Positions 6,101 to 46,339 of a stretch of 64,000 nucleotides of DNA are shown here, piece after piece. Made by a program: the position numbers and the translations under genes. The notes below the pieces were generated by a model. That model did not search any database. It saw only the letters and a list, made by a program, of their open reading frames with translations, and was not told the DNA's origin. Origin of the DNA: Acorus gramineus (lineage: Eukaryota; Streptophyta; Magnoliopsida; Acorales; Acoraceae); contig CM060854.1 in the NCBI GenBank assembly GCA_030737835.1, forward strand, positions 7,450,860 through 7,514,859, given 5' to 3'. Numbering within the stretch: position 1 is the first letter of the stretch; every line of letters starts with the position of its first letter.

Positions 6101-9100
6101 AAAGAGATAAACAAGAGGGAATGGGAGACATTCACGAAAAATATGGTAAACTTTATCAATTCATCAAAACTTAATTTTCTTAGCATAGACTGTGCCCAGA
6201 ACAACCATATAATTTTAAACAATGATGAATATTTACCTTATTTGGCTCCCTACTTGACTACTTGAAAATAAGAAATAAAAAACCTTTCCCTACATCAGGT
6301 AATTGTTCATTTTTCTCATGTTATTTTTGAATATCTAAAAATATCTGTTCGGAATTTTTCTGGATATTGCAAATGCTTTACTCCATGAAGGTTCATGAAG
6401 TTCTCTTGTTAAATGTTCATCTAACAGTTGGTGTTGGTAACATATCAACAAAATTTTAAATTGGATTATGAGAAATGATTCTTGTTTTCTTTTATTTGGA
6501 CAGGCAAATGAAGATTTGGGGCACATCAGCTGGGAAGCAAAGGGAGCTCAGCAAAATGTTGGATGAGTGGTATTGTCTCATTTGTGTTTGCATTGCTTTC
6601 TCTTTACTAGATTATGAACTTATTAAATGAAGTGGTGGGAGATATAAATCATCTGGCAGGTAGTGGGCTAACTGTTTTATAATCTTGATATGTAGGGCTG
6701 TTTATATTCGAACTAAATGTGGTAAAAAACCGCTTTCATCATCCATTTATCTTTCAGAAGCTGAGCCCTTCCTTGAACGATATGCGAAGCGCAGTCGGGA
6801 GAATCAAGTTCTTGTAGGATCTGCTGGTAACTTAGTAATGGCTGAAGAATTTCGGGCTATTGTTGAGGGGGGTATGGATGAAGAGGGTGATCTTGATCGT
6901 GAAGAAGAATTGCCTAGTTCCTATGATGCTGTTGCTAGGGATTCAGTTCCAAAGGCTGAGGGTCTTATTGTATTTTTCCCTGGTGCTTGCCTTATCCCAG
7001 ATCTTTCTTCTGCCTTTATTAATGTTATATTGATCATATCTGCGGTAATAAAACAGTGAGACACAAACGATGGGTTATAAACTGTCCTGATTTTAAATAG
7101 GTTTTCTCTAACTAGTCATGAGTAATTAAGAAGCTCCACTATGATAGGTAGGATGTTGATATATTATGAAGCCATTCCTGACCTTCCCTGTACACTGCTT
7201 CCATATGCATGCAGATTGCAATTTATTTTCTTAGCATTCTCTTATCTCTTTTATTGTCTTTAGTAATTTACGGCAATCAGGTGCTTCATTTTTCATTTAT
7301 GCCCTTGGTTAACAGATTTGCTAGCTTTCTTATTGTTATTACTGTTTCTGCCCCTTAACGAATAATTTTTAATCCGTTCAGGTTATCTATTATTTATAGT
7401 ATTAGTCACATCTAGAATATTAAGCTTATCTATAATGACTGCCAAAGTGATTGAATATGTGTAATTTTTGCTTTGCATTGATACTCCAACTTATCCAACA
7501 CACAATATTCTGCTAATGATCAATATTTTTAAAGTCAGATACATGTAGGGGTATTTGATCAAAAAGATTTTTCCAAAATGTTATGCAGATCTTAATTTGA
7601 GGATTAGATTTTAAAAAATCATCATTTTCTATTTAGCAAGTATGCCATTCCCCTATTACCTGTAACTCTTTCTTGCTTTGCATCCCCCATGCAGCTGTTT
7701 TTGTTTAACTGATTTAATCCTTATGCTCTATTTTTTCAGGTATACCTGGTTGTGCCAAATCTGCACTCTGCAAAGAAATATTAAGTAATCCCGGTGGACT
7801 TGGAGATGATCGTCCTGTATATAGCTTGATGGGAGATCTGATTAAAGGTTAATGGATCTCCTTTTTCTTCTTCTTCTTCTTTGTTCATCGGTTCTTCTCA
7901 TCTATTTTTTATTCTTGAACCGTGATCCGAAGATGTTAAGAGTAGGCCCTTCTTTGAGTCCATGTGACGCAACTGCAGAGATCAAATACAATAAGTGTTA
8001 GGAACCATTTCTGAATGGGAGATGCTGATTTACCACTATTGCTGGGAAAATTTACCTTTTAGTTCTTGTATCATCATCCAAAGTAGTACATCTATGTTTC
8101 ACATCATAGTTTTTAATGAAATGTTAGTCAGTGCCATATACCTGTGCTTCATGCCCTTCTAACATATATTTGGATTCTCTGCAATAATTTCTGACTTCAT
8201 GTTTATTGATAGTCTATAACAAGTCATAATTTCTTCAAGTGAAACTGTGATAGTGAGATTCATTAGTTTTGACCATGTATATCTGCTCATCTGATCTTCC
8301 CCCTATCTGGTCATTTACTAATCTCTAGGACTTACGACTATCCAGTTTTCCTTGCTCATCCATGTCTCAGCATGCAATCACACTGGAGTTTTTTTTTTTT
8401 TCTTTTCGTGGTGGGTAAAAAGGAATTTGTATTGCTATGATTGAGTAGTTACATTCAAAAAGTTACACAGGTGAAAATGCAAAATTTATATAAGTGTTTA
8501 GGCTTAAAATGAAAACAAAAACCGCCAAAGGAGGGAAGCCGCGACTAGTGAGACTACATCCCTTCAACAAGTTTTCGAACAGAGCTAGCCTAGAGGAGTT
8601 AGCGCTTGTTGGATCTAATGTAATTTTTGTCGGACACATCCTTAGCTAGGATGTGCTGCAGCGTTCCATCAAACTGGTCTGGGAGGAGATAAGTATTGCC
8701 TGGAGTCATTCTCAGCATGCTAAGTAATCAACTGCTTGGTTTCCTTCCCGAAAGACATGTGAAACTTGCCATTGAGTAAGGGAAGAGAGAATAGCACCTA
8801 ATTCATTGTGTGCACGCAAGATTCGCCATGGTAAGCAGCCTTTCCCTTGAACCCAAGCCACCGTAGTGGATGAGTCACTCTCGAGGTAGATGGAGTGTAT
8901 GCCCAACTTTTTGCAGATACGTGGTCCTTCAAGGATGGCTTTATATTCAAGAACATTGATGGATGAGAGGAGTTTGTCCTGCACCGCCACGGCACAAAGA
9001 GATTGACCCTCGCTGTTCTGAACTAGCCCACCATATCCTGCTCTGTCCTTTGCTAATGACCTGTCGGAGTTCGATTTGTACCACCCTTCTAATGGTGGCT

Positions 9101-12100
9101 GCCAGGACACCTAAAGAATGCTCCAGCGGTAGGATTGCAATATCTCATTAGGAAGCTAGTCGTTTCACCTGGTCAGTGAGTTCCTCCTTTAGACTTTTCC
9201 CCAAGAAGATGATGTGTACTGATGAGCAGATTTGTTTGTAGAGCATTGCTTTACAAACTGGAGTTGCATGCACTGAACTTGGACGCTTAATTGGCTTTCC
9301 CTGTCAAAGGTGGAAGAGTATCACTATGTAGTTTATCTTGTAAAGAATATTTCCTTTTCACTTATTTGTTGTTGTTCATTTATCGAGGGCGGCAAGTGGT
9401 TGGAAGTATAAGTTGTTTTCTCAACTATCTGGATTCACATGAAAGTGATTCTTTGCATAGTTCATAATTGTTTTGTACATTAAAGTCATTTTGAACATCA
9501 TATTCAATACTTCGCTAGCTTACACCAGAAGGGGTGGCTAAAGGTTTTTCAGCTTATCCTTTATAGTGCAATATAACTGCATGCATTCTAAGTGACCTTG
9601 CAATGGTTTGACATCATCTTTGAACTTATGCCCGAAGTTGAAAGAAAAATTGACCAAGGATTTGCTTAAACTTATGTTAGTTTTTATTTTTTTTAAATTT
9701 TTTTATATAGAGAAAAATTGGACTCTTTATTGATCGTTTTCCTTTTATTGAATGATTGATAAAAAATAATTTAATATTTCTTTCACAGAATGAATTTGAT
9801 TCATGAGGCACTATTGATTTATATTCTCAATATATCTTCTAACTTCTCTTTCCAGGAAGGTATTGGCAGAAGATTGCTGATGAACGCCGGAAAAAACCAT
9901 ATGCCATAACCCTTGCAGACAAAAATGCACCAAATGAAGAAGTTTGGAAACAGGTTATATGTTGTCCTTTTTGTATGTTGCAGTTTCTCCATTATTGTTA
10001 TCATACACCTTTCCTTTCTCTAGTTTCTGATGTATAATCATGCCAGATTGAAGACATGTGCCTAAAAACAAGGGCATCTGCCGTTCCTGTCGTTCCTGAC
10101 TCTGAAGGTCAATAGTCCATCTCAATCAAGCTATGTACTCATTTGTGTCTGAATATCTATATCCATTTCTCTACTTGGCTCTCTTTAGATGCTTTGATGT
10201 GCTCAAGTTTCTCAATTTCCTTTAAGTTATTTAAATTAAATAAATACCTAATGATGAGAAAACTTCTACTCTATAATGTTACATACGTAATTCAGTAGAT
10301 TTTTTTATTTTCAACTTCTGATTTTATTATGGCAGTTGGGGTTGGGTGTGGCACATTTAAGTAAATTTTGAAGTTAGTGATGTAGAGCTGTTGATTAAAT
10401 CACCCTGCAGTTATTATGAATCAGCCCTGGGACTCGCAAAATCCTCCTGCACTTCACATGTTTTGTTCCAGTGGAAATGCGGAGCATCACTTATTTAATA
10501 CAGCTAATTCTTTGTATCGTGTGATAAGGGCAACATTTTTTGTTATTTGATATCTCATTTTGCATTGGCAGGAACTGATTCCAACCCATTTTCACTTGAT
10601 GCATTGGCTGTTTTCATTTTTCGTGTCATCCAACGTGTCAATCATCCGGTATTTTCTCCTTTTTATGTTTATCTTATCATATTTGCAAGCAGTTTTGTAC
10701 ATAATATGTATAATAGGATGTTAATTCTTGGTTCTTTGTCTCGTATAAAATTTCAAGGGTAGTCTTGACAAGTCATCTCCAAATGCTGGTTATGTTCTGT
10801 TAATGTTTTATAATCTTTATGAGGGCAAGGTATGTATTTGGTGCTTGTCTTTCTTTTAGAATTTTGAGGTGTTTTTTTCCTGAAACAGGTTTCGCATTGA
10901 TGTATTACAAAACATTTCATCAACTTTATCACATTATTTGTTGCCTATAATTTTAGTTCTATTCATTGGAAACGATTGCAGAATCGTAGAGAATTTGAGA
11001 GTGAACTGCTTGAACGTTTTGGGGCTTTGATCAAGATGCCTTTGCTCAAGTCTGATAGGTGAATATATGCTCTCAATAACATTTTTTTGGAGCTTATTTT
11101 AAAATAGTGTTAGGGAATATCATGCGGACTGTCCGCACGTCTTGATTTTTTAAAAATAGTGAACATCATCTAATGAGTATATGCTTTGAAAAGTGTATAT
11201 TGCTCTATTTCGAATTGAATGTCAACAAATGTAAAAAAATTTAACGAGGTATATACCTCATCTAAGAAGGTATAAACCTAACCTCGCTAGACGGCTATGG
11301 AGGTTTATGGACTGTCCATGCAGACTGTGTAACAACCCTCTTTTTTTTTGCATTCATAGAATTCTTCTGATATCTAAATTAATCTGCACTAGCTAGTCTT
11401 ATTGCATGTTTGTGTTGTATAAGGTTGCTATTGGAAGACACTTATTCCAAAATTATACGTCTCTCTCTACATATTAATGTCACTTTGGCAAAAGAAACAA
11501 ACTTTAATGAAGTGTTTTATACTTTATGTGCAAAAAATGTACCTTGTTGTACTATCTGAAGCACATATTTGTGTTACCATCTAAGGAAGTTGGCTTATCT
11601 CTTGTGCAAAATATATGGGAATCTTTGTTGCAGTTCATTAAAGATTGGGGAGTATCTTGCGCTGGGGCTTTTAAGTGTGACATTGATGGGAGGGCAAATT
11701 GTAATTCAAGGGTAATCAGTCAGGAGAAAGTGTTTTTGGGGTTAGCGTGTGTAGATACCTCTTCCATTATGCCTTTGTCGGGTTTTTTTTTTCTTCTTAC
11801 TTGTACCTTTGAATTTGAGCACTTCTCTTAATGAAGTTGGGATAGGTTGCCTATCATTTTCACAGAGAGAGAGAGAGAGAGGAAAAGAGAGGAAGCTGGT
11901 TTGCCTCTTTGATTTTTTGGTTGTCCAAAAATTTCTCCCCACTATTATTTAAAGAAATTCATGAAACAAGAGATTATATAGTCCCAAACATAGACTTAGC
12001 ATGTGTGCCCATTGTTCTGATATGCGCTCTATGCGGCCGCATATGCGGTTTGCTATGCCTACCAAACCGTGTAGGCCAGAAAGCGGGGATATGCGAACAA

Positions 12101-15100
12101 CACTTGCATAGGTGGTCCAACGCCGCTTAAGCGGGCGCATGAGTTTAGTAAATTTAAACGGGTCGAGTAGGACTTTTTGTTTTATTTTGTAAAAGTTAAA
12201 CGGGTTACAAAAAAAAAAAAAACGGGGGAGTCTTCTCTCGACTAGCCGGCTCTAACACTCCCTTTCGACAAATCGACCTCCCCTATCCTCCTCCCCTTCG
12301 ACCTGCTCCTCCCCTTTGGTCACCAACCATCGCAACGATCTGCTCCTCCTTCGACCACTGACCTCCACCAAAGATCAACCTCTGGCACCACCTGAGTAAG
12401 CCGTTCTCTCCTTCATCTCTCCACCATCCGTCCTCATTCACGCCTGAACTCCGAGTCCCGTATTCACCCCTCTGTTTCTCAATCTCTGGTTCCAAAGGAG
12501 GCTTGTTTTGACTTGTTGGGGGCATCGTGAGAGGATTTACTAAATGACTTTGCCTCCAGGTGTGAATACCTCATGTGGTACTTGGACTTATCATGTGGCA
12601 CTTGGACTTAGGGGTTATGTTTTGTTATTAGTTTAATCACCACCACCACCATCACCAGTCATGAATATGTGGAGGATAAGTAGTGGTTCTTTTTGTCTGT
12701 ATGTATGAGAACCTCCACATCATGTACATAAGGTTTGCATAAGCCAGGCCTTATCACGATCAATCCAGATGAAAGAGACTCAGCGACTCAGTTCCTCTCT
12801 TTCTCTCTCACGTGCACAATTGTATCATTGTTTGAAATAATGAATTAAAAATGTATTGCATTGATATAATCATGTAACTTACGTTTATATGTTAAAATTT
12901 ATCTTGTTAACTCTTGTTTATAAATCATCATTATAGAATCATTCATTTTTTAATTTTTATTAATAAAAAATTACAGAACCACGTATACTCCCGCATACCG
13001 CATATACTTTGTGTAGTACCCCAGCCACACGCAAACTGTATATCAGAACACACACTCCCGCTAAATATAACATTACTCGCACAGGTCATGCAAGGTTCAG
13101 AACATAGATCACGATGGATGGTTCAAGATGGTGCTTTTTGTTTACTTTGGAGACTTTACTTTCAAACTTTAGATCAGGCATTTGTTTGGATGCGTTTAAA
13201 CTTAATTGGATCCAAGTGTCAGTTCACTTCGTTCACCCTTCATCTATCTTCTGCATCAATCTTTGCTCTATCTGCATCAAATCTGGATTTCTTTAGTCCT
13301 GGAATCCATTGCCACAGATGAATTGAGTTTTTGGGCGCCATATTATTGTTGCTTACGTAGCTTACAGACCTGTTTTCATCACCAATAGAGATCTTATTAT
13401 TATTTATATTGTTTGTTCCAGGAATCCATTACCTGATCCAGTGAAAGCTATACTAGAAGAAGGAAGAAATCTTTACAAGCTTCATACTAACAGACATGGA
13501 AGGTATATTAAAAGTCATCTTATGTTACTTTTCCTGTTCAACAATTTTAAAAAAATCTCTGTGTGTCAATCTCATTATGGTGTTATATATCTACCATATA
13601 ACTGGAATAGCAGGGCTCATCGCAAGCACCTCACAATCAATGTTGTCAGATAAATTCCTACGATGCAATAAACCTTTTCTGAATGTGCAGTCTGATCAGT
13701 GAAATCCTTCGGCTTCCACAACTGGCATGCACACAATTTTTTTTATTTTTCTAAAATGTCCTTGCTGCCCTTAATCTTTTCCAACACCTCATACAAGCCT
13801 CAAAATATAATAAAATTTACTGAACATATCCTAGTATTTACATGGTTCTTTTTAGAAAGGCAAAACGCAATTCATCATTTTGGAAAACCTACGTCTCACA
13901 AAAATGCTCCTATAGAATTTAGATGGACATCTCTTGAAAAACTTGTATACATTAACTGATCTCTTTCTCTTAGTCATCCTAACCTCTGCCACACATCAGT
14001 TTGCATCGCACTTATGCTTTGTTCGCACCCAATCAACAATGTCCTTTTCTCCTTAATACTGCAAAATACTGCTTATTTTGACATTATCTTATCAGAGTAA
14101 CTTTTTATTACTTTATTTAGATCAGAACCTTCCAAAGGCACATATGCTAGGGAGTGGGCTCAATGGGAGAAGCGGTTGCGAGAGATCATATTTGCAAATG
14201 CTGAGTATCTTAACTCTATTCAGGTATATTTCTTTCTGATTTCCTGTTTACAGCTTATTTTCCCCTTGGAATATCATATTAAGTCCATTCATATAATTTT
14301 CATTTCACATGCACCAATTTTTAGGTGGAGATTAATGAATCAACAATAATAATAAAAGGGAGAAATTTTTTGGTCATGGTTATTCTTGTAGATTAATCAT
14401 TCAATATGCTAGTTTGAATTGAAAGAAGCTGTACTCTTTTCATGTGTTCTCCTCCCGTCGGGCTTTTGCCTGGGGTGGATGGAATCACAAGAAGACTATA
14501 ATAGATCATTTTTATTAGCTTGATTGATTATATAAGTGCAGCTATTTCTCTTCAATATGTTTAAGTTTCACCCTTTCATATTAAGGACAATAATGATATT
14601 ATTCTCTTCGATATGCAGTCTGGTATCATTTTTATGCTATCAATGGGTACACTTAATTATCTAAAGAAGTTAATAAAGAAACCCACAGTATAATGTTGCC
14701 AGATATTTATCTTCAATATATGAAGTGCACTCTTTCGTATTAAGGACAATAATGATATCATTCTCTTCAATATGCAGTCCGGTATCATTTTTATGCTATC
14801 AAAGGGTAGTCTTAATTATTGAAAGAAGTTAATAAAGAAACCCACAATATAATGTTGCCAGATGAATGTAAATGTGCATGGTTTCTACTTGATGCATTCA
14901 TCTTTTTTAAATTTATAGTTCACACATTAGGGAGTAGTTCTGGTTTTGAATTTTTTTTAATATATCAAACTGCCATCTTATCACCCACCATCAAAGATAC
15001 ACGTCTCACAGACAGCGTTTAATAATGTTAGGCACGTAGTTTTACTCAATACGAGTGACTTTTGTAGCATGGAAGTGCTCAGATCAAGATTTAAGGGGAA

Positions 15101-23509: not shown

Positions 23510-25460
23510 TTATACACTAAGATTTGCAATAAAGCTGGATATACTACATTATCACAGTGGTGAAAATCAAAGAAAAAATGTATGCTAATGTATCTTGGAG
23601 TATACTTAATTTTTTATAATAGTATGTATTAAATATACAAATGTGTATTTTTTTAAAAAAAAATTGATGAGGACTATGGATTGTACACAGTGCTGAACAT
23701 ATCATTTTCATTGCAAGCATATTATTCAGTTATAAAATATAACTTACGTATTCTTCAGTATTTTCAAAAGAAAAATTTGTTCCAAATTCTTTTTCAAGTA
23801 CAGTCCCTGTTAAAAGATGGTGTTGGATTTATTTGACATAGGTTCTGGATGAGAAACAGATGGCCAGAACAAACTTTGACTTGGCAATTGAATATTGACC
23901 AATTCTACAGAGAAACAGTCATGGTGGGTGCATGCTTTTGTAGTTTTTCAAACTTTGAGGAATAATTATTAGATGATTGATTATTATGCATCAATTACAC
24001 CCCCACAAAGATACATTGATGATCGCTTCAGTGATTGGGCATACATACCCTAACATTAAATTCATTGAAGAAGAAAGCAAGTGCAGCACGGCCTATTTGT
24101 TAATAATTTCAAAGAAAAACATTTTTTTCCAAAAAGTGATTAAAGGAAATTTGAATTTTATTTTTTAATCTTGTGGGGTTGACTAGGAGGGTTTAGAATA
24201 ATAGCGTGATTATTAAAAAAAAAAAAAGAAGTTTCCTTCTCCTAACTTTTTTTTCTCTCAAGTACATGTTCTATGAATTAACTTGAAAATGAGTCTTATT
24301 TTATATCAAACCAAATTTTATGTGAATTTCATCTTTCTAGTTTGACCATGAGGGTCCCTTCGATATAAAAAAAAAAAAAAACTGTGTTTGAAAATAGATT
24401 CTCATGGAAAGCTAGCTATTCTTAAAGCTCCTCCAACTTTGTATCTTGGGTAGACTTCCCTTCACATATGAAAAGGGGTCTTTAGTTAAATATTCACTTA
24501 ATTATTTGTGTGTTTTTTATTTCTAATAAAATTTCTCTGTATCAAATCACATAATTGTTATTCCCTCTTCAATAATGGGTCATGATAGCAGTATGACTCT
24601 GAACGTTTGGATATGCAGTAACATTCTTTATGGCTTCCCACCACTGCACCATAGATCTAAATGGGGCCTGATTTTGAATCACAGCTTGGTCATAAGAATT
24701 AAGAAGACACATGGAAATATGTTTTGATATATCAATTAAGCTGTATAATTTTTACCAAAATAAAACAAAAGAATATAAAATAAAACCTAAGCTGTCTGAT
24801 GACTTTTGAGTCTAGGTCAATGCTAATTTACAAGGATTTTTTACTCTGGAAATATTATAATATTCTTCTTTCCTCACCAGTGTCCCTTATTCTCCAAGAG
24901 ATGCTTTTCTCAAGTCTTCAACAAAAATAAAAAGTATACCTACTTTAGTGATAGTAACAACATCAAAGTAAAATGAGACAAAAAAACAAGCTTCACACAT
25001 CCACGTAATTTTCTTCTCTCCAAGGATGCCTTTCAAAAGGTTACTTCTAATTTTATTTAAAAAAAACGTGTTATTTTATTTAAGAAATGTTATAATAAAG
25101 ATTTTATTGTTTGGTTGATTATTGATAAATTATTAATAAAATGTGAATAAATAATAATAAAAGATGAAAGAATGATTTGACATATATAATTCTTATTTAT
25201 AGAAACGGTGACAAAGAATTTGATATAATATGATTTATAGAAAATTTAAAATATTAATACCAACTTGTTCACTCATAAATCATAATATGAAATAATTATA
25301 CCCACTTATTCCGTGCAAACAATTAAACAGGCTTTTTGGTTTATTCATTTTTATTCCACTATATTCCGCACCTATTCCAATGCTTAGATAGGGCGATATT
25401 TCAAGATTTAAGTGTTAATTGTATTGATAAACTGGCCAAGCCTATCCAAAAATTTGTGAA
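23510..25460. other. Intergenic AT-rich DNA without recognised genes
   Basis: No coding frame of note on either strand. Around 25070-25440 is a stretch with AATAAAGATTTTATTGTTTGG and TTATTCC words that recur near 30319-30640, and partly near 60790, so it is probably a dispersed repeat. It immediately precedes the LTR element. Confidence 0.5.
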
Positions 25461-25663
25461 TGTTAGAATAAAGAAAAGGGAATTATTGTTATTATATTAG
25501 AGGAGCCAAAGGGCTCTATTTATAGATACATAGAGGAAACCCTAAAATACAGATAAGGAATCTAGGAAAACTAGGAAACTAATAATATCACAATAATGAC
25601 AATACAGATATAATAATAATGACAATAAAGATATAATATTATCCTAATAATGATTCTTTAACA
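25461..25663 (-). repeat. Long terminal repeat (3' LTR in element orientation)
   Basis: 203 bp, TG...CA ends in plus-strand reading, same length as the partner copy. A minus-strand TATAAATA box lies at 25517-25524. About 24-bp AATAATGACAATA-type words are repeated within it. It abuts the polypurine tract at 25664. Confidence 0.92.
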
Positions 25664-25672
25664 CCCCCTCCC
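25664..25672 (-). promoter_or_regulatory. Polypurine tract of the LTR element
   Basis: GGGAGGGGG on the minus strand, directly next to the LTR, in the position where plus-strand DNA synthesis starts in LTR retrotransposons. Confidence 0.8.
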
Positions 25673-25797
25673 AAACTCTGAAAGGTAGAACCCTTAGAGT
25701 TTGGACAAAAATGAGAAGGTGACGAAGGCTGGCGACAGCACGTGCAGGAGCAGCAGGGGCACGTGCAGGCGCGGCAGGGGTGCAACAAAGGCACGGT

Positions 25798-26525
25798 AAC
25801 GGCGACGTCAGCGGCACGACGGTGACGGCGACGGCGACGGCAGGGGCACGACGGCGACGGCGACGGCAAGGGCACGACGGCGACGGCGACGGCAAGGGCA
25901 CGACGGCGACGGCGACGGCAAGGGCACGACGGCGACGGCAAGGGCACGACGGCAAGGGCACGACGGCGACGGCAAGGGCACGACGGCAAGGGCACGACGG
26001 CGACGGCAAGGGCACGACGGCGACGGCAAGGGCACGACGGCGACGGCGACGGCGACGGCAAGGGCACGACCGCGACGACAACGACGACGGCAAGGGCACG
26101 ACGGCGACGACGACGGCAAGGGCACGACGGCGACGACGACGGCAAGGGCACGACGGCGACGACGACGGCAAGGGCACGACGACGACGGCAAGGGCACGAC
26201 GACAACAGCGACGACAAGGGCACGACGACGACGGCGACGGCAAGGGCACGACGACGACGGCAAAGACACGGGCACGACGACGGCAAAGACACGAGCACGA
26301 CGACGGCAAGGGCACGACGGCGACGACGACGGCAAGGGCACGACGGCGACGGCAAGGGCACGACGACAACAGCGACGGCAAGGGCACGACGGCGACGGCA
26401 AGGGCACGACGGCGACGACGACGGCAAGGGCACGACGACGGCAAGGGCACGACGACAACAGCGACGGCAAGAGCACGACGGCGACGGCAAGGGCACGACG
26501 GCGACGACGACGGCAACGCAGGGGC
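25798..26525. repeat. GC-rich minisatellite array inside the LTR element
   Basis: About 28 units of AAGGGCACGACGGC followed by zero or more 6-bp GACGGC or GACGAC additions, giving typical unit lengths of 14, 20, 26 or 32 bp. Variants include AAAGACACG and ACAACAGCG. Since most unit lengths leave a remainder of 2 on division by 3, the frame shifts at nearly every unit. The array lacks stops in several frames of both strands. The resulting long Arg/Ala/Thr- or Pro/Cys/Arg-rich frames are therefore most likely by-products of composition and not proteins. Confidence 0.9.
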
Positions 26526-26759
26526 AAAGTCAGCGGCAGCAAAGGCGTGCGGAAGACTCGCGTGGAGGGCGTGGTGGTATTACACAGCGGAGAGCAAAGA
26601 ACAACGACGGCACAAACAAATAGGGTTCGCCTGAGAAGCAAACAAAGCAATCAAAGAAAATATGGGTATCAAAAGTCCTCCCCCGCTCCAAATGAAAACA
26701 TCTTAATTTGAGGGGGGGGGAAGGAATAAAAACTTTTATATATCTAGGGTTTCAAAGGT

Positions 26760-26772
26760 GGCTCTGATACCA
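26760..26772 (-). promoter_or_regulatory. Primer binding site (initiator tRNA-Met type)
   Basis: Minus strand reads TGGTATCAGAGCC immediately after the LTR end at 26773. This is the well-known plant Copia-type primer site complementary to the 3' end of initiator tRNA-Met. It fixes the orientation of the element as minus. Confidence 0.9.
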
Positions 26773-26975
26773 TGTTAGAATAAAGAAAAGGAAATTCTTG
26801 TTATTATATTAGAGGAGCCAAAGGGCTCTATTTATAGATACATAGAGGAAACCCTAAAAAGCAGATAAGGAATCTAGGAAAACTAGGAAACTAATAATAT
26901 CACAATAATGACAATAAAGATATAATAATAATGACAATAAAGATATAATATTATCCTAATAATGACTCTTTAACA
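26773..26975 (-). repeat. Long terminal repeat (5' LTR in element orientation)
   Basis: 203 bp, nearly identical to 25461-25663. Minus-strand TATAAATA at 26829-26836 would serve as the element promoter. The LTR is followed on its outer side by the target duplication GTGAA. Confidence 0.92.
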
Positions 26976-27570
26976 GTGAAATTCATGACAGCTAAGCAAA
27001 AAACGCTTCATATGCATGTGGGAGATTTTTGAAAAATAAGTATTGTTTAAATAATTATCTAAACGGCCTTCAATTAACTTCCATTCTCATATATCAATTG
27101 GTTTATTTTTCTTCTTCTATAACATCCGCAAATGACGAAATTTGGCCAAGTTAATTAGAAGATCATTTTTCTTAACTAATTTTAGATCATTTTGTTAATT
27201 ATTTAAAAAAAAAAAAAACCATACATAGTGATATACAAATACAAGCCATACAGGATTAACAATAGGATTCACTTAATAAAAAATTTAGTCCACCAAATCA
27301 CTTATTCACATATCGGTCACTAGTCCTAACTATACTAATTTATTTATTTATTAGAAGAATGAAAACAGTTAATTTTGGTTTAATTATATGATCAAATGAG
27401 CCACTAAATATTTGATTTAGCAGAAAAACCTCAAGTGAAGCTAATATATAATTCCAGTGTTTCATAGGATTCCCGGCCAACAATTATTCTTCTTTTGATT
27501 GTTTCGGCCACATTTTTTCATACTTCAAATTCTGATGGAAGGTGAAATAGGTGAGATGTGGTATAAAAAA
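26976..27570. other. AT-rich intergenic DNA between two mobile elements
   Basis: No gene seen. Contains an A run at about 27205-27216 and the left target copy TATAAAAAA (27562-27570) of the MITE that follows. Confidence 0.5.
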
Positions 27571-27848
27571 AAAAGGATTTTTAATTTTAAGTCTCCACAA
27601 ACCATCATATTTAATGATCGATCCTTTCCTTTTTCGTATTTAGGTTTTAGTCCGTCGATTTAAAGGATAATTCATGGATAGGTCCCTCACAGGGACTAAA
27701 GAGTAAATTAAATAATTTATGGATAGGTCATTCTCAGGGACTAAAAATGAACTATCATTTAAATCTGGAGACTAAAACCTAAATACGAAGAAGGAAGGAA
27801 TCAATCACTAAATATGATGGTATGTGGGGTCTTAAAATTAAAAATCCC
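27571..27848. mobile_element. Mutator-like MITE, about 278 bp, 9-bp target duplication
   Basis: Long terminal inverted repeats of about 80 bases: the left GGATTTTTAATTTTAAGTCT... is matched by the right ...CTTAAAATTAAAAATCC. The inner words GTATTTAGGTTTTAGTC and GACTAAAACCTAAATAC also pair. TATAAAAAA lies at both borders (27562-27570 and 27849-27857). The length of this duplication and the G/C-ended repeats fit Mutator-like elements. The left outer end is blurred by an A run. Related to the element at 51085-51457. Confidence 0.72.
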
Positions 27849-28287
27849 TATAAAAAATCAAGAACATTTTTACAATGTGAACTGCACCGTCTATTTTTAG
27901 TGCATCCATCTTTGTGTTTTTGCGTACGTATCGGTTTCGGTAAAATTTATTGTGTTGTTATGACCTCCAACAATTTATGTGTACACGGTTTACATTGCAT
28001 TCTCATTATTATTATTATTAGTCAACTTCACTGCCTCACCGTCCTCCCAGCTCTACTCAACACAGTATTAATTATAGCTTCTTTTCATATATTATATTAA
28101 TTTTAATAAAATCAAGTTTTAGGTGGGTGAGATATGGTGTTATTGCTTAAAGCCAACAAAAAAAAATTCTATTTATCAACATGTTATGCATCACCCAGGA
28201 AGTGGTGTGATGTGTATGGGGACACCTTTTCATAGGGACCCATTTTGGATTTCTTGCCGACAACGAGACTCATAATTTGGTGAAAAA

Positions 28288-34200: not shown

Positions 34201-37200
34201 TGAAGGCTCTCATCATACATATCCAAACTTCACCCATTATATGTGGCTATCATTTTTCTTGACTGGAAAAGGTTATGCGCAACTAACAAGTAGGCATCTG
34301 GCCAATCGTCATGTGACGATTGTGAATTTTTATACATTTAATTAATCACATTTTTTTTTCTATCTAAGCATGGCATACATCATATTGCATGTGTATAATA
34401 TATACGTGTGTATATATGTATATATGTATATAGAGGGGTGGTATGGTGCGGACACAATACCCTCTGTCAATATGAGGTCACTTTGTAATCACCCTACAAT
34501 TTGGGTGCATCCAATCATTTGCTAAGAAAATGGTCCATAAAAAAAATCACAGAAGAGGGGAGATCATGTTGAGAAATAAGAGGGATCACAATTCATGGGG
34601 ATATATGTGAGTTCATGGGGTGGTTTTTTTAACCGTCTGATTAATCCATGTAATTTGACACTCATAGTTACGCTATAACTTTCACCCTGTCATGCTTGTT
34701 TACTTCTGCATTTCTTTTACAATGATGGGGAAAAAAAACAATATCATCCTTAGTGATGCATAGTCTGATTAATTAATTCTCAGAAAATAAAAAACAAAAA
34801 ATAATAGAACATTACCTTCTTTAAGCACTTATCAGAAGAGGGGCAATGATCAGGATGGCATATCTCTGAGCACAAATGAGGGCAGTTTCTTAACTTTCTG
34901 CAGAGTGAAACAAGAGACTTTAAAATCATTGATGAGTGACTATCAATGACCTATAAAGGCAGATGCAACTACTTACACTGTGATTGTTAACCATGCAAAC
35001 AATTCAAAATTTCAAATATGTCTAGTTACGTGCAATTTCACAAAAAATTGACATGAGACACATGCCTCACAACAGAATATCAATATAAATTGGTTTGAGA
35101 GCTGGTGTACCATGGGTATTGGCCTATGCACCAAAAAGGATCATATTGGTATGCATGTCTAAAGCATGATCAGTGTTAGGCTAATCATACCTAAGTTGCT
35201 AAGTTAACTCGGAATATATTAAAATCAAAATTGTCTTTAGTGCAAGGGTCAAGTTGTTAGCATCAGAAGTACTTGTTAAGCTAGATATAGCCAGTGATAA
35301 TCTCATTTTAGCTGGCCTAGATACTAATAAGTGGTGATGGGAATAAAAAGCAAATTGTAGAATTGTAACTTGGTTTCAATTACCTCTTCAGATTTTTAAG
35401 GCCCCACCCCTAACCACCACCAGAAAATATCATAACCACCACCAGAACAAAACAATAAATAAATATAAATTAATAAATTCTTAACATGTTGCCCTTCCCA
35501 CATAATCCTTCATCCAATATCAAATAATTACAGGTCCTGTTCAAAGGGAGCATTCCGAATGTGGAAAACATATGGAACTCTATTTTCTTATTTGTAAAAG
35601 ACCGGGGAAGATTCTGTGTGGTGGCAAAAAGGGTTGTTGTATCAGGTGGAAAATTTGTAATTGAATATAATTGGTTTTAGGGAGGTAGATACCAGTAGTA
35701 GGCCGCTCACCTGCTACGGTCTCTACTGGACAAGCATCTGTATTCTCCCTTTTTGGGCCCTATCTAACATGAAATTTGGGTAGTCTGCCAAAAAAAAGTA
35801 TCAAATAATTACCTTATACACCTCTTCAATGAGTGCGTTGGGGGACAGGGTGATATGCACATTCTTCCTCTAGTACAAAGCCTTTTAGATTTTGGGAATC
35901 GATAATACTAATGCATGCCATGCAGAAAGAGAATAATTAAAGAAAATTACAATGATGTAATCATAACCATAACCCATAATATTCAGGCCTTAAATTTACC
36001 TATGGCACGGTCCACCGCATGAGCGGGCCCTCTGTTGATCATTGTCTGACAAACTGCTAAAGTATGTGCACTCAAAAACATGGACCATAGAACTACAATG
36101 ACATGATCGTTTGATAAGCACTCGGCAAGGGGCACAATCACCAGAATGACAGGGCAATGGGCAAGGATGTATGCATGCAGGCTCCCTCTCCTGTTAACAG
36201 TAAATAAACAATGAGCAACTCAAAATTCCAATATAATCATGTCATAGGCAATGATTCCACAAACTCAACCACCTGTTACACACACTTGTAATATCTCTAA
36301 GTATTCTTAAATATCAGAGCAAAAGGATTGGTAAAAACTATAAAGATAAAGATGGCAAGAAAATAGTAGTGACGAGAACAAAATAAAGACCTTTTGACAA
36401 GGAAGTAAGCATTCTTCACATGGCTCACTAAGCTTTTGTCTTTCAGTTTTTGTGAGGGTGATAGTTCGACTGGAATAGTTCTCATTGCTTTCTGATATAG
36501 GCAGGACGGACAATACACTCATCAAAACATGGCATTGTTTCGTACAATAATGGTTTCCACACTGAAGAAGGTTCCCACAAAAGTTCCCACAGGAAAACCT
36601 TGATTTATCAGAGCACAGCATCTGAAAAGACATCAAGATGCATGTTATGATTTCACAAAATATATGCAAACCTATGATTATATTATCAAACAAGCAAGAG
36701 AAATAAACAAACCGATCTCTCTGATCCCATGTGTTCACCAAGGCATGATTTCAATACGATTTCTTGACATGGGGGGCATGTTGATCCAGGTGTACCCTGG
36801 CTCTGTTTATTAAATTTCTTTTTCTTTGGTTTCAGGGTGAACTCTGGCATGGGAGGAGGTGTTGGACCATGGCACCTGGACATAATTCAAGTCTAAACTG
36901 AACAAATAGAAATTATATGACATGCCAAGATATGTCAAAAAACCAGGGTTGTAATCAAACCTCTTTATACAGGCATGGCCGCATGGAAGCTTCTCTTCAC
37001 ACACCAGCCGACATGGAGGACAAGATCCATAGTGGCATTTGTGTGGCTGGAAAGACAGGAAAAATTTTGATATTAAATGAGAATGAAGAACAAAAAAAGA
37101 AAAGAAAAAAAAAGATTTCCAGAAGCCTCCGGCAAGGAACAGTTCAGAAAGACCTGTCTATTTTTTGTTTCTCTGTCACTCATATAAAATAAAGGTTTCA

Positions 37201-40200
37201 CTTGGTATTTATCCCCGGTTTAATCAACGTTGTACAAGTATTCAACTAACAATCCAATGATCTAAACTTTTTTTGGGGGAAATTTACATGAACCCCTTCC
37301 ATGTTCTACATCACATCACCACATTTACATCAACATTTTTTTTTATGGATACATTTACATCAACATTAGCAACTTTGTTTTCCATTTTGTGCTTTATCTC
37401 TGATTTCAAATGATCCAAGTCTTATAGTATTACTTAAATTGATACTGATCAATACAAACTACTGTTGATGTCAAAGTCGACACTCCTTATAAATATACTT
37501 TTCTTAAGACTCAACCATTAAAGTGAAAGTGCTTTGGTGGCGGTTGGGCGAGGTTGTTGTTTTAATATATGTGTTAAAGAGTCATTATTAGGAAAATATT
37601 GTGTCTTTATTATCATTATTATAATATTATTAGTTTTCTTGTTTTTCTAGTTTCCTTTTATAATATTTTAGGTTTTCTATTGTGTACCTATAAATTGAGC
37701 CTTTAGCTCCTCTAATATAATAACAAGAATTCCCTTTTCTTTATTCTAACAATATGATTTCAATACTCTTGAAGATATGTGGAAGGCCAATAAGGACCTT
37801 AAGAAAGAAGGTGATCAGAGCACGAAATTTAAGGGTTCTCATATTAATATCCTGGCGGGCTGTTGGGCAAACAGTGTCTTGAGGAACGAGCTGGTTTTCT
37901 AGGGAGTTATTCCATATGATGAAAACATATGGGAAAGCACTATTTTCTTCATCAAATATTGGACTAAGAGCTGCACCCTGGCTCAGATTGTTAAGACTGC
38001 CTCAAGGTAAGGTGTTTGTTTGATCTTTGAGAACTGGGGCTATTGTATAAAGGCGGGAAAGATGATTTGATTTTGCTTTGATATTATTGTTGTTCTCCTA
38101 TCAGGAGTTGGAGACACTTTGTAGTTTGTTCATCTACTGTGACTCCAATTCTCTTTATTTTGTATGGTGGAGCTATACCCTTAATCAATGTTAATAGAAT
38201 GATGGGAGGTAGAGTTCCATTTCTTCAATAAAAAATATCAAGAATCTACCTCTTTCTTTGTTAGGGTGCAGTCATATCGTGGACTCATCACGTATCACGA
38301 GGCAGGTGCTATTATTCCATGCAGGAAGAAAGCTACTCTGAAGACCTCCTCTTGTTCCTTTTTTCCACCTCAACATATTAGCACCTTTGCCAAGTCCTCT
38401 ATGCACTTAATATCCATTGAGCAATAAAGCATTCCTAAATCATCCTTTGTCTGGGGTATTATAAGAAGGCTCATGATAGCTAAAACTTCCATTCTAACTT
38501 GTTTGATGATCATAGATGGAGGTCGAGTGGGGTTTGCAATAGATTGCATCATGAGTGTGGTAGTTTTCTTTTTCCCCACATACTTTATCATGTTTTCCCA
38601 AACTTCAAACTCATAGGACATTAGATTTATAATATTTTTTGAAGAGGTGGTGTTCGCCAAGTTTCATTGCAAGCTGACCATGTTACATAGTACCAGGAGA
38701 GAGGAAGGTAATGGAAAGAAATGATGCAGAGGGAAAAAAAGAAAAAAAGAAACTGGCTCATGGAGGTGATAGGGCTCAGCTGAGCAGTAAGTTACGGCCA
38801 AGCAAGGTACGTCACTCAATACAGAAACTCATGTTTTCCTCAGACATTAGTTTTATAGATTGTAACAGAAAAACAGATGTGACAGACGAATCTTTAAATG
38901 GCTACGACATAGGGACAAGTCTGCAATCAAACTTAGTGTATATATTATAATAGGAGTTTCCAGCAGCAGCATCTAATAGGCTGTAATCAGTGATGATGTA
39001 TATTCCAAGTATTCCGTGACATGGACACTAGTGAGATGGAGTGTCCAATATGGGAGACGGCTCCAAATCTCAGGCATAAAGTGTGCAAATTTACGCTATT
39101 AATATTATACCCATTTCAAAAGACAACAAACAGAACGTTGTATTAGTTATATAACATAAATATCAGAGAGCCAATGCCAATGACTTCAGTGAATAATGCC
39201 AAAAGTTTCAAAATAATATTCCTATGTACATTAGGAAAAAATTGTACCTTACTCTTTGATGCATGTCTACACAAACGAGATATAGGGCAGGGTTTTGGAC
39301 ACCTTGGTGGCTTTTGATCCGCTTCAAGTCCACAAGGAACCTGTTATGCAATGCATGCAAACTTAAACATACATTAAAGTGCAGTCCACACAAATTGATT
39401 GACAGATTACATGCATCTTACAAAAGGATAGCATTTGATACACAGACAAGGATTAATCAGCTTCCTAATAACTGTATATCTAACAATTGGCAATTGTTAC
39501 ACCAAACAATAACGACAACACAGGGTAAACCAGGAGAGATCCTCCCCTCCCCCACTTGTGCGTGCACACAAACACACACAGTGATCAAATACAGTCCAAA
39601 TATTATCCAATCCAGTATTATTAATGCCGTTCAAGTATTATTCAATAATTTTTAATGCTACCTTACAGAATTGAGTAGCCTCAACCAGCTATCAAAAAAA
39701 GACAGCTACTTTTTAGCCCCTTCTCCAGAAATAATCAAATATTCAGACCTTGATTTACTAGCTTTCAGTCCCATTGTGTTTTTTTTTTTTTTTTTTGGCA
39801 GTATTTTACCCTCTCTTGGGGTTCCCTGTTTCCAAAAACAGAAAGCTTGTGACGACTCCATTTCCATCCCTGGACTCCCTTTTCCTACCTACACACTGAG
39901 TCTCCAATATCATGATCAATGCTTAGCTAATTTCTCAGCAAAAATGAAAACCCAACTTCAACAAATGGGATCAAATTTGCACAACGGACTTTGTTTCTAA
40001 AGACATTATCACGAGTGGGCAATCAATGAAATGTTTTCCATACAACAGCCATCTACAAATGCTAAGTTCTGGAACAACTGGAATAAAGCAGGAACTAAGA
40101 ATAAGATACAAGAGAAAATTCACCTCGAAGTGTGTTTCACCACATGCACATGAAATGGAGACCATCAAGGGACAAGGAGCACACACACCTCTGGAAGGAA

Positions 40201-43200
40201 AAGACACACTAGAATTACAAAAATGACAAGGACAACTGAAATTTGAATGCAGAACACTAAAATCAACAAAAGATAACCCAAAATCCAAGTTGTACCCAAA
40301 TTGAAAAGAAAAAATTAACGGCACATGGAAAAATATGTCATGATATACACAAAAAATAATATCTCAGCTAAAATAGAAAAATTCACCAATCTGATTTTCT
40401 ATTGAATATCCTAATATACAAAACCTACAGATCAAATTCAAAAAGAGAGTAAAAAATTGGATCACTAAATTTGATGTAAATATAGCAATTCAGAGATGTA
40501 AGAAACTAATAATTACCAAGGTTGGAAAGAAAACCAACTGAAGAAAGCCATCATTCTATGCACTGCTAATAAAATTATAACTAAACAAGAAATGAATAGT
40601 TCACGAACAAAAATATGGCTACAATCAGGGTGAATTTCACAATTGTAAAAATGTTCCTTGAAACATTTTCCAGCAGAATAGAACTTGAGGTCGGGTGACA
40701 GTAATAGACATTTTACTTTAGACTAAAATCAAATAAAGAAATTTACACAGAATAGTGTTCCAAAAAGTAGCTCAGCAACTTCCAGGCATTATGGCAAGCA
40801 CCCTAAGGAGGAATCAGGCAGGCCTCCAGAGCTTTGGGCCTAGGAAGCCACATATTAATGATCATGGATAAAAGCAGCCTAGTTTACCTTAACATGTGCA
40901 ACCTAGTACTTGTTAGTCCAGTTTGATATTTAATGTTTTCTCAATCAATTTTAATTTAACCCATCTCACAGGTAAATCATATATTCTTGACGAAAGCTGG
41001 ATTGCTAGAGCTGGATGCCATAAAAAGAAGGATTTTAAGTCTGAGCAGATGGAGTTGTTGCACTTGCACATGGTTCGAAGGATGGATATTGTGGTGAAAA
41101 ATTAAAGGCAAAAAATGCTCGCTGAAGTAATAGATAGAAAGGCGCTCGAACAGATGGAGGAGTACCTTCATGCCTTGGTTCTGATCTGGGAGAAAATTTT
41201 GCAGGTGTTGGAGGACGCATCGATCACTATATTGCCAGCCAGGAAGGTCATCCCGTTTTTCCCCTACCTCCCCAGTTAGAGTATCAAAATTCTCGGTGTG
41301 ATTCTATGCAAGATCTAAAGGAAGGAGGTGAAGAAGTTCATTAGAACATTATTTTACTTGTCGATCTCAATATCTAAAAATATGATCAAATATTTTAATT
41401 TTAATATTATATAAAATGTTAGAAATATTTTTGCAATTGATCTATTTGATTTTCAAACCAATTAATCAACGACATGCCAATTTTATTTGATCGAAACGGA
41501 TGAATTTGCATATCTTGATTATTTCAGATCAAGCATGTAATTCTACTTAATTTGAGATCCGGTAAGATGGAGACAACAATCTTTTACATTAAAAATTCCC
41601 TGGGAGAAAACCACAGACCTCATCCAAAAAAACAATCCACTAAGAAAGGAAAAATAGACTAATGATGAAGATGCTATAACTAAATGCTATCTACCTAGAT
41701 CATAATCCAATTATCTAGGTAAATACTATTGGTTGTTTAAACTGATAAGCAGCCCCCTAAAACACAAAGATCAAAAATCTTATTTAAGTCTTCAGAGAGA
41801 AAGTTAAACAATCATGCACAAACAGGATGAAATTACAGTGTAGCCAATGAAACTACATACCTGTGACAGGGGGAAGGGCATTTGTGGTTGTTACACCTGA
41901 GCTTCCTGCCACATATCTGAATTTCCAAAAATGAATATTGATCAAAAGTGAGAAAAATGATAATTAAAACTGAAACAAACAGTGATCTACACCTCTGGGC
42001 AAGAAGGACAATCTCCATCGCAGCAGCGACGCCTACAAGCATGACGGCCACAATCTCTAACCCGCTGGCATTTTCTCTCACAAACCAAATCTTGATAGCA
42101 AGGAACCTACAATTAAGATAGGGTCCAATCCTATTTTGAACAAAAAGTATTGTGAACAAGACAAAGTAACACACAACTGAGCCAGCTACACAAACATCAC
42201 ACTTCCAATAGGCCAAATGCCTTAAGGAATAGAAACATCAGAGCATGTGTCCATGAGTCAGCAACAGACATGGCATTGACAAAGAATGGAATAACTATTC
42301 AGGTAGGAAACATTGCGGTGCACACATGATGTTCAATGCAAGTTGGAGGAAGGCTTGTCAAACATTCCAGATGCACGAAGTCATTCGGAATGTCAATGAC
42401 ACTTCTATATTAACAATTTAACATAATAGACAAGTCAGACAGACACAATAGTAAAATGCGCAGGACCAAAAGAATGGGTTTTAAAGAAAGTTCACCTCTT
42501 TCTTCAAGCTCCCACACCGGCACGACTTGACAACAACAGCCCTACATGTCTCAATGCAAGGCCCCTTGTGGCACCTCTCGAAACACCGATGTCTCCCACA
42601 CCCGAGCACCTTCTCGCACGTCGACCCGCACGTGGGCACCAGCGCATTGCAATCCATCACCCCTCTTCGCTCCACCTTCCCGCACGGGCAATGCCTCTTC
42701 CCTTTGAGTGGGCACTCCCCGCAAGGACCCCCATGACACCCTCTCCCGCACTCGTGCTTCCCGCACTCCAAGATACCGCCACAAGGCCTATCACATTGGA
42801 AATTGCGCTCAAAACACTTCCTTTTCTCCTCAATTTCCCCGCATTGACACTTGTAAACCCCCTCCACCGCACAGGGAGGGCATTCCTCCGGGTGGCATGT
42901 TTCCCGGCATCGGTGGGCTCCACAGGGGAGAAGCTTCCCGCAGGGGGAATTGCAGGAAAAGCTCTTCTGAGCACACCTGCGGACGTCTTCGAGTGACCCG
43001 CAGAAGCATCTGACAGTGACAATCTTTGGGCAGGGCGGGCAGGGTCCGGGGTGGCACAAGAGGAGGCAGCGGTGGCCGCAATCGTTCTTCAGAGGGCGAT
43101 CGCAGATCTCGCCGCAGGAGTGGGGGAGGGTCCACGGATCGGACGGTGGGTCATAGACCTTGCCGCAGAAGCAGAGGTAGGCGCGGGGGATGGACGATCT

Positions 43201-43647
43201 AGGGTAGGTGAGGCGGCACTTGGGGCAGTGCCAGTCATCGGAGGGGGAGGGGCGGAGGGCGGAGCGGGCGGAGGAGGTGGAGGAGGACTGGGCGGCCCAG
43301 TTCTGGATGCATAGGAGGTGGAGGAGGACGTGGCAGCCGGAGGGGGAGCAGGACCAGACGGGGTCCGAGGGGCGGATGCGTTCGAGGCAGACGAGGCAGG
43401 CGAGGGAGCCGCGGCGGGAGGAGATGAGGAAGGAGTGGATCTTGGAGAGGTTGGAGGGGGTGGTGGTGGAGGGGCCGGAGATCTGGAGGTAGGCGGCGAA
43501 GATGGTGTCGGCGAAGGAGGGGGTGGTGGTGGAGATGGAGTGGTGGTGGTCGCCGTCGCTGCTGGCGGTGTCGGAGTCGGAGTCGGAGGCGGAGAAGGGG
43601 GGGTTAGGGTTTGGGGGAGGTGGTGGGAGAGAAACGGTGGACGCCAT
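31205..43647 (-). CDS. NFXL2: NF-X1-type zinc finger protein, NFXL2 type, 13 coding exons
   Basis: Exons in gene order: 43647-42496, 42106-41993, 41916-41861, 40190-40124, 39340-39248, 37046-36961, 36875-36713, 36621-36391, 36190-36000, 34897-34816, 34086-33883, 31543-31454, 31363-31205. All are GT-AG and in phase, encoding 895 residues. A Ser/Pro/Asp-rich N-terminus leads to a RING/PHD-type finger (C84 to C144, ending WHCPKC). Many NF-X1 fingers of the form CGxHxCxxxCHxGxCxxC follow from about residue 165. A basic KRRKRRER region comes near the end, then a C-terminal hydrophobic segment (about 852-876) that fits a membrane anchor. Arabidopsis NFXL1 and NFXL2 modulate stress and clock-related responses (family knowledge); the RING suggests ubiquitin-ligase ability. 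Exon 1 is much more GC-rich than the rest. Introns carry LINE fragments and a solo LTR. Confidence 0.95.
32763..32783 (+). repeat. 21-base C homopolymer
   Basis: An uninterrupted run of C in the NFXL2 intron 31544-33882, inside a C/T-rich stretch (about 32440-32880) that stands out from its AT-rich surroundings. The length may vary between individuals or be a sequencing estimate. Confidence 0.85.
35530..35790 (+). mobile_element. LINE 3'-terminal fragment in an NFXL2 intron
   Basis: Translation [20 protein letters not shown] at about 35537-35600 matches the terminal pattern FxGxxPxVExI of plant LINE ORF2 proteins, followed by a stop-riddled tail. It is antisense to NFXL2. No upstream reverse transcriptase is present. 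Confidence 0.55.
37572..37751 (+). mobile_element. Solo LTR of the 25461-26975 element family
   Basis: 180 bp beginning TGTTAAAGAGTCATTATTAG and ending TTCTTTATTCTAACA, matching the minus-strand reading of the 203-bp LTRs over its whole length with small deletions. It contains TATAAATTGAGCC in place of TATAAATAGAGCC. It is flanked by a perfect 5-bp target duplication, ATATG (37567-37571 and 37752-37756), as expected of a solo LTR left by recombination between two LTRs. It sits in the NFXL2 intron 37047-39247, antisense to the gene. Confidence 0.92.
37757..38250 (+). mobile_element. LINE ORF2 3' fragment
   Basis: Directly right of the solo LTR. The translation runs [15 protein letters not shown], then [13 protein letters not shown], stop, then [16 protein letters not shown]. 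This corresponds to the WxxWxxRNxxIF...E+IW end of plant LINE reverse transcriptase proteins with a stop in place of one residue. The reading frame decays further right. 5'-truncated and inactive. Confidence 0.65.
38270..39000. other. Unassigned part of an NFXL2 intron
   Basis: A minus-strand frame of 96 codons (38660-38370) shows no motif I know. The rest is ordinary AT-rich intron with an A/G-rich patch near 38710-38760. It may be further transposon debris. Confidence 0.3.
40923..41345 (+). other. Coding-like stretch in an NFXL2 intron, unrecognised
   Basis: Between exons 4 and 3 of NFXL2 a plus-strand frame is nearly open from about 40975 to 41277, with one stop at 41103. An overlapping frame of about 68 codons ends at the TAG near 41346 and reads [19 protein letters not shown] within it. 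Composition is more codon-like than the surrounding intron. No known domain is seen; a retrocopy or transposon piece are the likeliest explanations. Confidence 0.3.
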
Positions 43648-45120: not shown

Positions 45121-45544
45121 CCTTGAGTATAGTCTTAAAATATTGGATATGATTTTTTTATAATGTTCATTGACACTTTAGAAATAAATATTCACTGTGC
45201 ATTGGGACAAGGCATATGCTATGCCTTTGCGAGCTTTCTAAAGTTAACCAAACAAGATATTATGCAATTAACTGGATGTATCCCATGCAAGATATTATGC
45301 AATTAACTGGACGTATCCCATGCATCTACTACTCTTAATAAATATCTTGTACGTATAGTAGTCACATTTGCATGATCGATATCTTGCACGTATTGTTCAT
45401 GCTCATATAGTGTTCATTAGGCAGTTGTTGTGACATTCGATCACTCTACACATGAGCAAAGCCGGAGTCAGAAATTATTGAATTTAAAAAAAGGGGGGAG
45501 GGGCAATAGACTTAGAATAACAAAAAAATTATTTATAAAATGAT

Positions 45545-46082: not shown

Positions 46083-46339
46083 TAAAATAATATAATTATA
46101 TTGTAAATCAAGAAAATTAAGGTTGTTGAATAATAACCGAGTCCTTGATGTAATGGGCAATTTAGATAGAAAGTAAGTTGTTTTTTTAATGTTTCTTTCA
46201 CATTTAGAAAACCTAAAAAATGTATTTGAAAAATTAAAAAAAAATGTACTTGAAATCTCATTATTTACCTTAAAATAAAATAAAAATAAGCTTGAAAAAT
46301 AATTAAAAAAGTCGACCGCAGGTGACACACACTTGATAT

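Follow-up and report, generated by a model that had tools for sequence, protein, structure and literature searches.

A small non-coding LTR element of Acorus gramineus belongs to a large family that shares its GC-rich minisatellite module with copia loci

Introduction

Among described systems, the closest counterparts of the element reported here are the TRIMs, which the parts of the literature that we drew on define as shorter than 1,000 bp (PMC4717578, PMC6934838), with 64 of 289 TRIM subfamilies not under that length (PMC4717578). Short LTRs, a TSD, a PBS, a PPT and the lack of coding sequence are common to TRIMs and to our element (PMC4717578, PMC6934838), as is the usual failure to find a partner, reported for 278 of the 289 subfamilies (PMC4717578); rare capture of gene fragments (in TRIMs of 1,172-1,449 bp) and tandemly arrayed copies offer further parallels (PMC4717578). 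The likeness ends at length and content: 23 of the 26 two-LTR copies compared here exceed 1,000 bp (the other three measure 875, 915 and 951 bp) and their interiors are rich in minisatellites, of which the available text of PMC4717578 and PMC6934838 notes none for TRIMs. SMART, from grasses, is likewise a tiny LTR element but measures 292 bp, a comparison made by description only (PMC3281118).

Minisatellites within LTR retrotransposons also have precedents. Soybean Gmr9/GmOgre contains a polymorphic one, and repeats occur in other Gypsy and Copia families as well (PMC3305785); hypervariable arrays are likewise described from the 3' UTR of Ogre/Tat elements (PMC7004042) and from between POL and the 3' LTR of Retand (PMC11963269), and abnormal strand transfer has been hypothesised as the source of the repeats in Ogre (PMC7004042). 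However, Gmr9/GmOgre is a Ty3/gypsy element of >21 kb with its array between the coding region and the 3' LTR (PMC3305785), and Ogre/Tat and Retand, too, bear theirs on the 3' side of gypsy elements (PMC7004042, PMC11963269). Neither the Ty3/gypsy pol nor the 3'-side array by which Tat/Ogre-Retand elements are recognised is found here: the relative is copia, and the array lies in what appears to be the 5' leader of copia elements and of gene-less derivatives.

TRIMs, gene capture, tandem TRIMs and minisatellites in LTR elements are thus all on record, and the suggestion of the initial annotation that the element might represent an undescribed family stands for the combination, not for its component parts. 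The open-access literature (subscription papers lay outside the scope of the search) yielded no report of TRIMs with minisatellite interiors, and none of short LTR elements that lack genes and are built around a minisatellite leader found in a coding copia as well; gene-less elements of this kind are apparently undescribed, which is no proof of novelty.

Results

Anatomy of the element

The window, by which we mean the whole 64,000-nucleotide stretch of DNA that was analysed, contains a complete element with paired TG..CA LTRs, a 5-bp TSD, and a PBS and PPT adjoining the LTRs, as in LTR retrotransposons (Table 1). The framework read initially (203-bp LTRs with 6 differences, the GTGAA TSD, PBS, PPT and TATAAATA in each LTR) was confirmed throughout, and a non-coding interior made up mostly of minisatellite was borne out as well: Pfam detected no gag or pol domain in the scanned frames of the window or of three related copies (L053, L054 and L067). 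We take the PBS, TGGTATCAGAGCC, to be of the initiator-Met-tRNA type. The 6 substitutions between the LTRs (3 transitions and 3 transversions; K2P 0.030) correspond to an age of ~1.2 Myr at an assumed rate of 1.3e-8 substitutions per site and year, which may not be that of the host. The TRIM- or SMART-like label given to the element holds for its LTR length (within 100-250 bp) and non-coding interior but not for its total length, since 1,515 bp exceeds the <1,000 bp of the definition. An Rfam scan of 25400-27050 returned no family at gathering score, and a tRNA search of the whole 64-kb window found none. Plasmid sequences contained no match to the element, LTR and array patterns had no match in viral_contigs, a search of genome_contigs likewise found nothing, and by eye none of the 41 loci with the PBS pattern in viral_contigs had an LTR end before the PBS.

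Table 1. Positions, within the window, of the element, its parts and a related solo LTR
Feature	Position	Strand	Remarks
Complete non-coding LTR element	25461..26975	-	1,515 bp; LTR pair, TSD, PBS, PPT
5' LTR	26773..26975	-	203 bp; ~2.3 copies of a 23-bp unit inside
3' LTR	25461..25663	-	203 bp
TSD GTGAA, copy 1	25456..25460	.	exact
TSD GTGAA, copy 2	26976..26980	.	exact
PBS TGGTATCAGAGCC	26760..26772	-	abuts 5' LTR
5' leader	26530..26772	-	hairpin in PBS-proximal half; distal half matched, among loci compared, by L070/L071 only (mosaic leader)
Minisatellite	25824..26529	-	GTGCCCTTGCC + variable GTC/GCC triplets
Block D remnant, GCACCCCTGCC-type	25751..25804	-	from comparison with complete copies
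Tail stem-loop CAAACTCT..AGAGTTTG	25672..25703	-	directly before PPT
PPT GGGAGGGGG	25664..25672	-	abuts 3' LTR
TATAAATA in 5' LTR	26829..26836	-	read from sequence
TATAAATA in 3' LTR	25517..25524	-	read from sequence
Solo LTR, same superfamily	37572..37751	+	TSD ATATG; 87-88% identity over aligned columns; nearest L070/L071 in LTR tree

TRF rows on the array reach from 25799 to 26516, with periods of 20, 26 and 46, and the motif GTGCCCTTGCC is present 24 times exactly and 27 times with one mismatch allowed; 20 of the 23 spacings between exact motifs equal 2 modulo 3. The sense strand of the array is without A over 706 nt, by far the longest T-free run on the plus strand of the window (the next is 42), and the same stretch has 0 CpA against 144 CpG. 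Delimited as in the other copies (658 nt), the array holds 0 A and 132 CpG; the arrays of 19 other copies hold 38 A in 3,715 nt, and the seven of them that are A-free are all <=158 nt long. Under an assumed substitution spectrum, the 706-nt stretch should have gained 3.5-7.2 A given 6 LTR differences (P 0.03-0.0008), or 1.3-2.6 if the LTR count is taken at its lower bound (P 0.28-0.07). An A-free array therefore fits poorly with simple decay at the age of the LTRs, a mismatch that is weaker at the lower bound; low methylation would account for it, as would an array that grew recently from a few units. Because stop codons need A on the sense strand and T on the antisense strand, both of which are missing there, the array is open over long frames, which are no evidence for a gene: a Pfam scan of two of them found no domain and one sub-threshold match, to Importin_rep_4 (E 0.3). 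Decayed units at the 3' edge of the array were considered and dropped, as much of that stretch matches block D of the family.

Elsewhere in the window, the solo LTR lies in the orientation opposite to the element, between the frames of an NF-X1-like gene (36307-43647), of which only the frame at 42481-43647 is confirmed by Pfam and the rest was recognised by eye. MITE-like palindromic foldbacks occur at 27575-27847, 51076-51465, 51176-51425 and 45530-46098, three of them 77-82% self-complementary and the one at 51076-51465 judged by its ends; the stretch at 27738-27854 is related to that at 51080-51194. A 159-bp unit is present in tandem duplicate at 14539-14863 (89% match), and a reverse-transcriptase-like domain (PF13456, RVT_3) at 8712-9110 on the minus strand is probably the remnant of a retroelement.

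A large family in the host genome

The search of the host genome (398.6 Mb in 137 contigs) that the initial annotation had proposed revealed a large family: the 21-mer spanning LTR end and PBS is found exactly at 316 places, the 26-mer spanning tail and PPT at 156, and a 31-mer of the array at 425 (overlaps counted), with 0 places for each of the reversed controls. Of 860 first-look candidates for the LTR, 40 were scored and yielded 42 matches: the two LTRs of the window, two 40-base pieces and 38 others; the surroundings of 25 of these 38 were compared as 20 regions (L050-L069). Leader and array motifs follow the 5' LTR in all 20, and 19 have both LTRs and an element length of 1,467-2,404 bp; the 3' LTR of L068 is truncated, and the 5' half of L059 is fused to other sequence. 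The common order in those 19 is LTR, PBS, a leader of ~120 nt, array A, GC-rich block B, blocks C and D, tail stem-loop, PPT and LTR, with block D present in 17 and undetected in L056 and L062. The 25 other family LTRs compared measure 179-190 bp, inside the TRIM range of 100-250 bp. Exact TSDs flank 12 of the 19; one of these lies in an AT repeat and two belong to a pair of apparent duplicates, and the other seven copies have none that is exact. Flanks are common to L064 and L065, and on one side to L057 and L058, whose TSDs are near-identical; both pairs look like segmental duplicates rather than separate insertions.

The array itself is highly variable. Across 20 copies the number of GTGCCCTTGCC motifs ranges from 2 to 37 and the K2P distance of the LTR pair from 0.000 (L054) to 0.059 (L062), and there is no correlation between array length and LTR age (Spearman 0.03, p 0.91). 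The window included, 26 copies with both LTRs were compared (875-2,404 bp), a non-random set, its members picked for similar LTRs, for pairing or for an RT close by. All 26 contain tandem repeats between their LTRs (called by TRF in 25 and seen as spaced motifs in L074): 21 have the motif of the window (19 of L050-L069, L074 and the window copy), and five have other repeats, of GCCCTGCCGACGT type in L072, L073 and L075 and of a 28-bp GACTCCGACTGACTCAACGAGCGGGAGC type in L070 and L071. Set beside these copies, the window element, which has array A, block D and the tail and in which blocks B and C are absent, is by sequence an atypical, internally shortened and mosaic member of its family.

Searching with the solo LTR, with 40 of 855 candidates scored, added seven LTR pairs, 695-1,817 bp from start to start. 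Four short pairs (L070-L073; 875-1,029 bp) have the same frame of LTR, PBS, leader hairpin and tail-PPT around different repeats, the 28-bp unit being present ~6 times in L070 and ~3 times in L071; in L075, a 22-bp unit is repeated 18 times. In a tree of 26 LTR sequences, L070, L071 and the solo LTR form one branch and L072 and L073 another, and under midpoint rooting the window LTR is sister to the set with L070, L071 and the solo LTR (node support only 0.68).

Among the first 100 listed 5' junctions, 65 are without an exact tail within 15 kb, and 20 of these were sampled. Leader-like sequence follows in 19 of the 20 (at least 102 nt in 11, 26-43 nt in eight). Within the first 630 nt, the array of the window is present in two (L081 and L094) and other TRF arrays in five (L086, L087, L088, L090 and L092), and because the remaining 13 contain no TRF array in that span at a TRF score of 60, the array is not universal in the family. 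Some of the sampled ends give way to AT-rich DNA after no more than a few hundred bases, and L091 contains an antisense piece of copia pol (PF25597, E 2e-26) that by eye resembles the protein of the second, copia family described below. An antisense frame inside another family copy (L082:278-550, minus strand; host C1:13935809) presumably resembles the N-terminus of PEX19; compared with a PEX19 chain in the PDB it gave E 0.32, Pfam gave no match, and it is possibly a captured host gene. At host C1:14038980-14054170, six 5' junctions stand in a row, four of them spaced 1,945, 1,814 and 1,814 bp apart; they probably mark copies in tandem array whose interior is different and richer in AT (L083 and L084).

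Leader and tail

Beside the PBS, 21 aligned related copies share a leader hairpin of 20 pairs, three of them compensated (in 1-2 sequences each; no shuffle control), and the window copy breaks several of these pairs. Ahead of the PPT, the tail stem-loop comprises 23 pairs in 20 sequences, with no compensation; that of the window folds with z -3.6, and one of 200 shuffles was equally good. Positions 204-322 of the window element, in its leader, are 94% identical to L054, and positions 323-446 are matched, among 24 loci, only by L070 and L071 (84 and 79%). These alignments make the leader of the window element a mosaic, which, taken with the antisense piece of pol in L091, points to template switching.

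A coding copia relative with the same module

The first 100 of the 425 array places listed were grouped by hand into 41 clusters, 36 of which have an exact junction or tail of this family no more than 2.5 kb away and in the proper order. The other five (L096-L100) sit behind a dissimilar LTR-like sequence and belong to a second, TGTTAGATTATATG.. family; they contain no match to the LTR, leader or tail of the window family. Their LTR-like stretch, ~134 bp by eye and seen as a single copy, ends before a TGGTATCAGA PBS, after which come the array and then B- and C-like sequence, as in the window family. In four of the five, a copia Gag frame follows the module (PF14223, E 5e-6 to 8e-5), with scores of 22.6-26.5, just under the Pfam gathering score of 27; L099 holds the start of the Gag frame only. 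Some 2-3 kb further in, RVT_2 is present in all four sampled loci (best E 2e-73) and, in the frames scanned, an SH3-like pol domain in two of the four (one below its cut-off), and the relative is assigned to copia (PF14223, PF07727). From the order, strand and spacing of these separate pieces, we infer that Gag and RT are parts of one element. The module of array, B and C is thus common to the small elements and to the copia Gag/RVT_2 loci, as pieces and not as a continuous read, and most likely it is the long leader at the 5' end of a copia family with coding capacity. The initial annotation had described the minisatellite as the element's only cargo; that cargo is not private to it, since the same module also precedes gag behind a dissimilar LTR-like sequence.

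Copies with intact gag-pol, it had further been reasoned, would mark the element as a simple deletion derivative. A coding relative does exist, but the junction-tail spans and RT candidates looked at held no gag-pol element with the LTR of the window family, and the coding partner is for that reason indirect. Among the first 100 listed junctions (contigs C1-C4), 35 are paired with a tail; 34 of the spans measure 509-2,521 bp and the 35th, of 3,874 bp, consists of a 1,499-bp element and a nearby remnant, so that none of the 35 has the 4-8 kb of a coding element. With 150 of 3,180 RT candidates scored, the nearest RT lies 8.0 kb downstream of a junction. An RT beside a family copy on C43 was considered as a partner and rejected, as it belongs to a neighbouring element.

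Discussion

The most probable explanation, in our view, is that the window element is a non-autonomous member of a large family related to a Ty1/copia lineage with an unusually long, GC-rich 5' leader built of minisatellite, and that the small elements have kept the leader and the cis signals without gag and pol. The signals that replication requires in cis (a promoter in the LTR, the tRNA primer site, the hairpin of the leader, the stem-loop of the tail and the PPT) have been kept along with the leader. RNA would be transcribed from the LTR and, because gag-pol is missing from the small elements, packaged and copied in trans by the proteins of a coding copia, for which the leader-sharing gag/pol family is the best candidate, and the cDNA would be integrated with 5-bp duplications. 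Slipping and template switching by reverse transcriptase within the repeats could then generate the varied array lengths, repeat types and captured fragments, and the window copy, with its mosaic leader, its missing B and C blocks and an array grown to 27 motifs, may be one such product. The direction from coding to small elements is proposed from comparisons that are not rooted.

It is quite possible, if short of likely, that the small elements are not deletion derivatives, and that an independent TRIM family acquired the minisatellite module when template switching brought it in from the leader of a copia element. Such a capture would account for the absence of any blastn match at E 1e-3 between the LTR of L060 and the loci of the second family, for the other interiors and apparent captured fragments on the same ends, and for the mosaic leader of the window copy. 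However, array, B and C follow the PBS in the same order in both families, whose PBS and LTR ends are alike, and simple descent explains this equally well.

A function of the minisatellite itself, as an RNA or chromatin module selected for packaging, dimerisation or escape from silencing, seems to us unlikely. Its occurrence in two families with dissimilar LTRs would fit such a role, as would the lack of A and CpA in the window array and a fold slightly better than that of shuffled sequences (z -2.2, 20 shuffles). A selected module would not, however, be expected to range from 2 to 37 motifs irrespective of LTR age, to be replaced by different repeats in other subfamilies, or to be missing near most of the sampled 5' ends.

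That the array encodes a long Ala/Pro/Arg-rich protein is highly improbable. Sense open frames of 568 codons in L053 (4218-5921, plus strand), 556 codons in L054 (4081-5748, minus strand) and 464 codons in L067 are matched in length by 0, 1 and 0 of 100 shuffles, respectively, but among the 17 remaining copies of the 20, 2-47 of 100 shuffles reach the length of the longest frame, most unit lengths shift the frame, and no Pfam domain is present in the frames of L053, L054 and L067. Block C is well conserved, and looks non-coding because of its 1-2-nt gaps and weak three-base periodicity (54, 41 and 38 changes). Finally, while repeats are hard to assemble, an assembly artefact confined to this locus, which the initial annotation had allowed for, or a chance pile-up of repeats can practically be dismissed, given that junction, tail and array have exact matches by the hundred across the genome, that the reversed controls gave 0, that the array units are imperfect and that the TSD is intact.

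Beyond descent from a copia lineage, which remains our preferred reading, a broader picture can be offered tentatively and with some doubt: the minisatellite leader may be an exchangeable module that moves between LTR chassis, such that one copia lineage has it before gag-pol and many gene-less elements carry, flanked by conserved signals for replication, the module itself, different repeats or captured fragments, and retrotransposition itself may make and spread GC-rich minisatellites. The LTR-element minisatellites whose descriptions we found, in the parts of the literature available to us, lie on the 3' side of large gypsy elements. The family presented here consists of many short, similar and datable copies with one array of 2-37 motifs and a coding relative with the same leader, and these copies thus provide a tractable natural series in which to follow the creation, lengthening and dispersal of tandem repeats by retrotransposition and the origin of elements without genes from coding copia.
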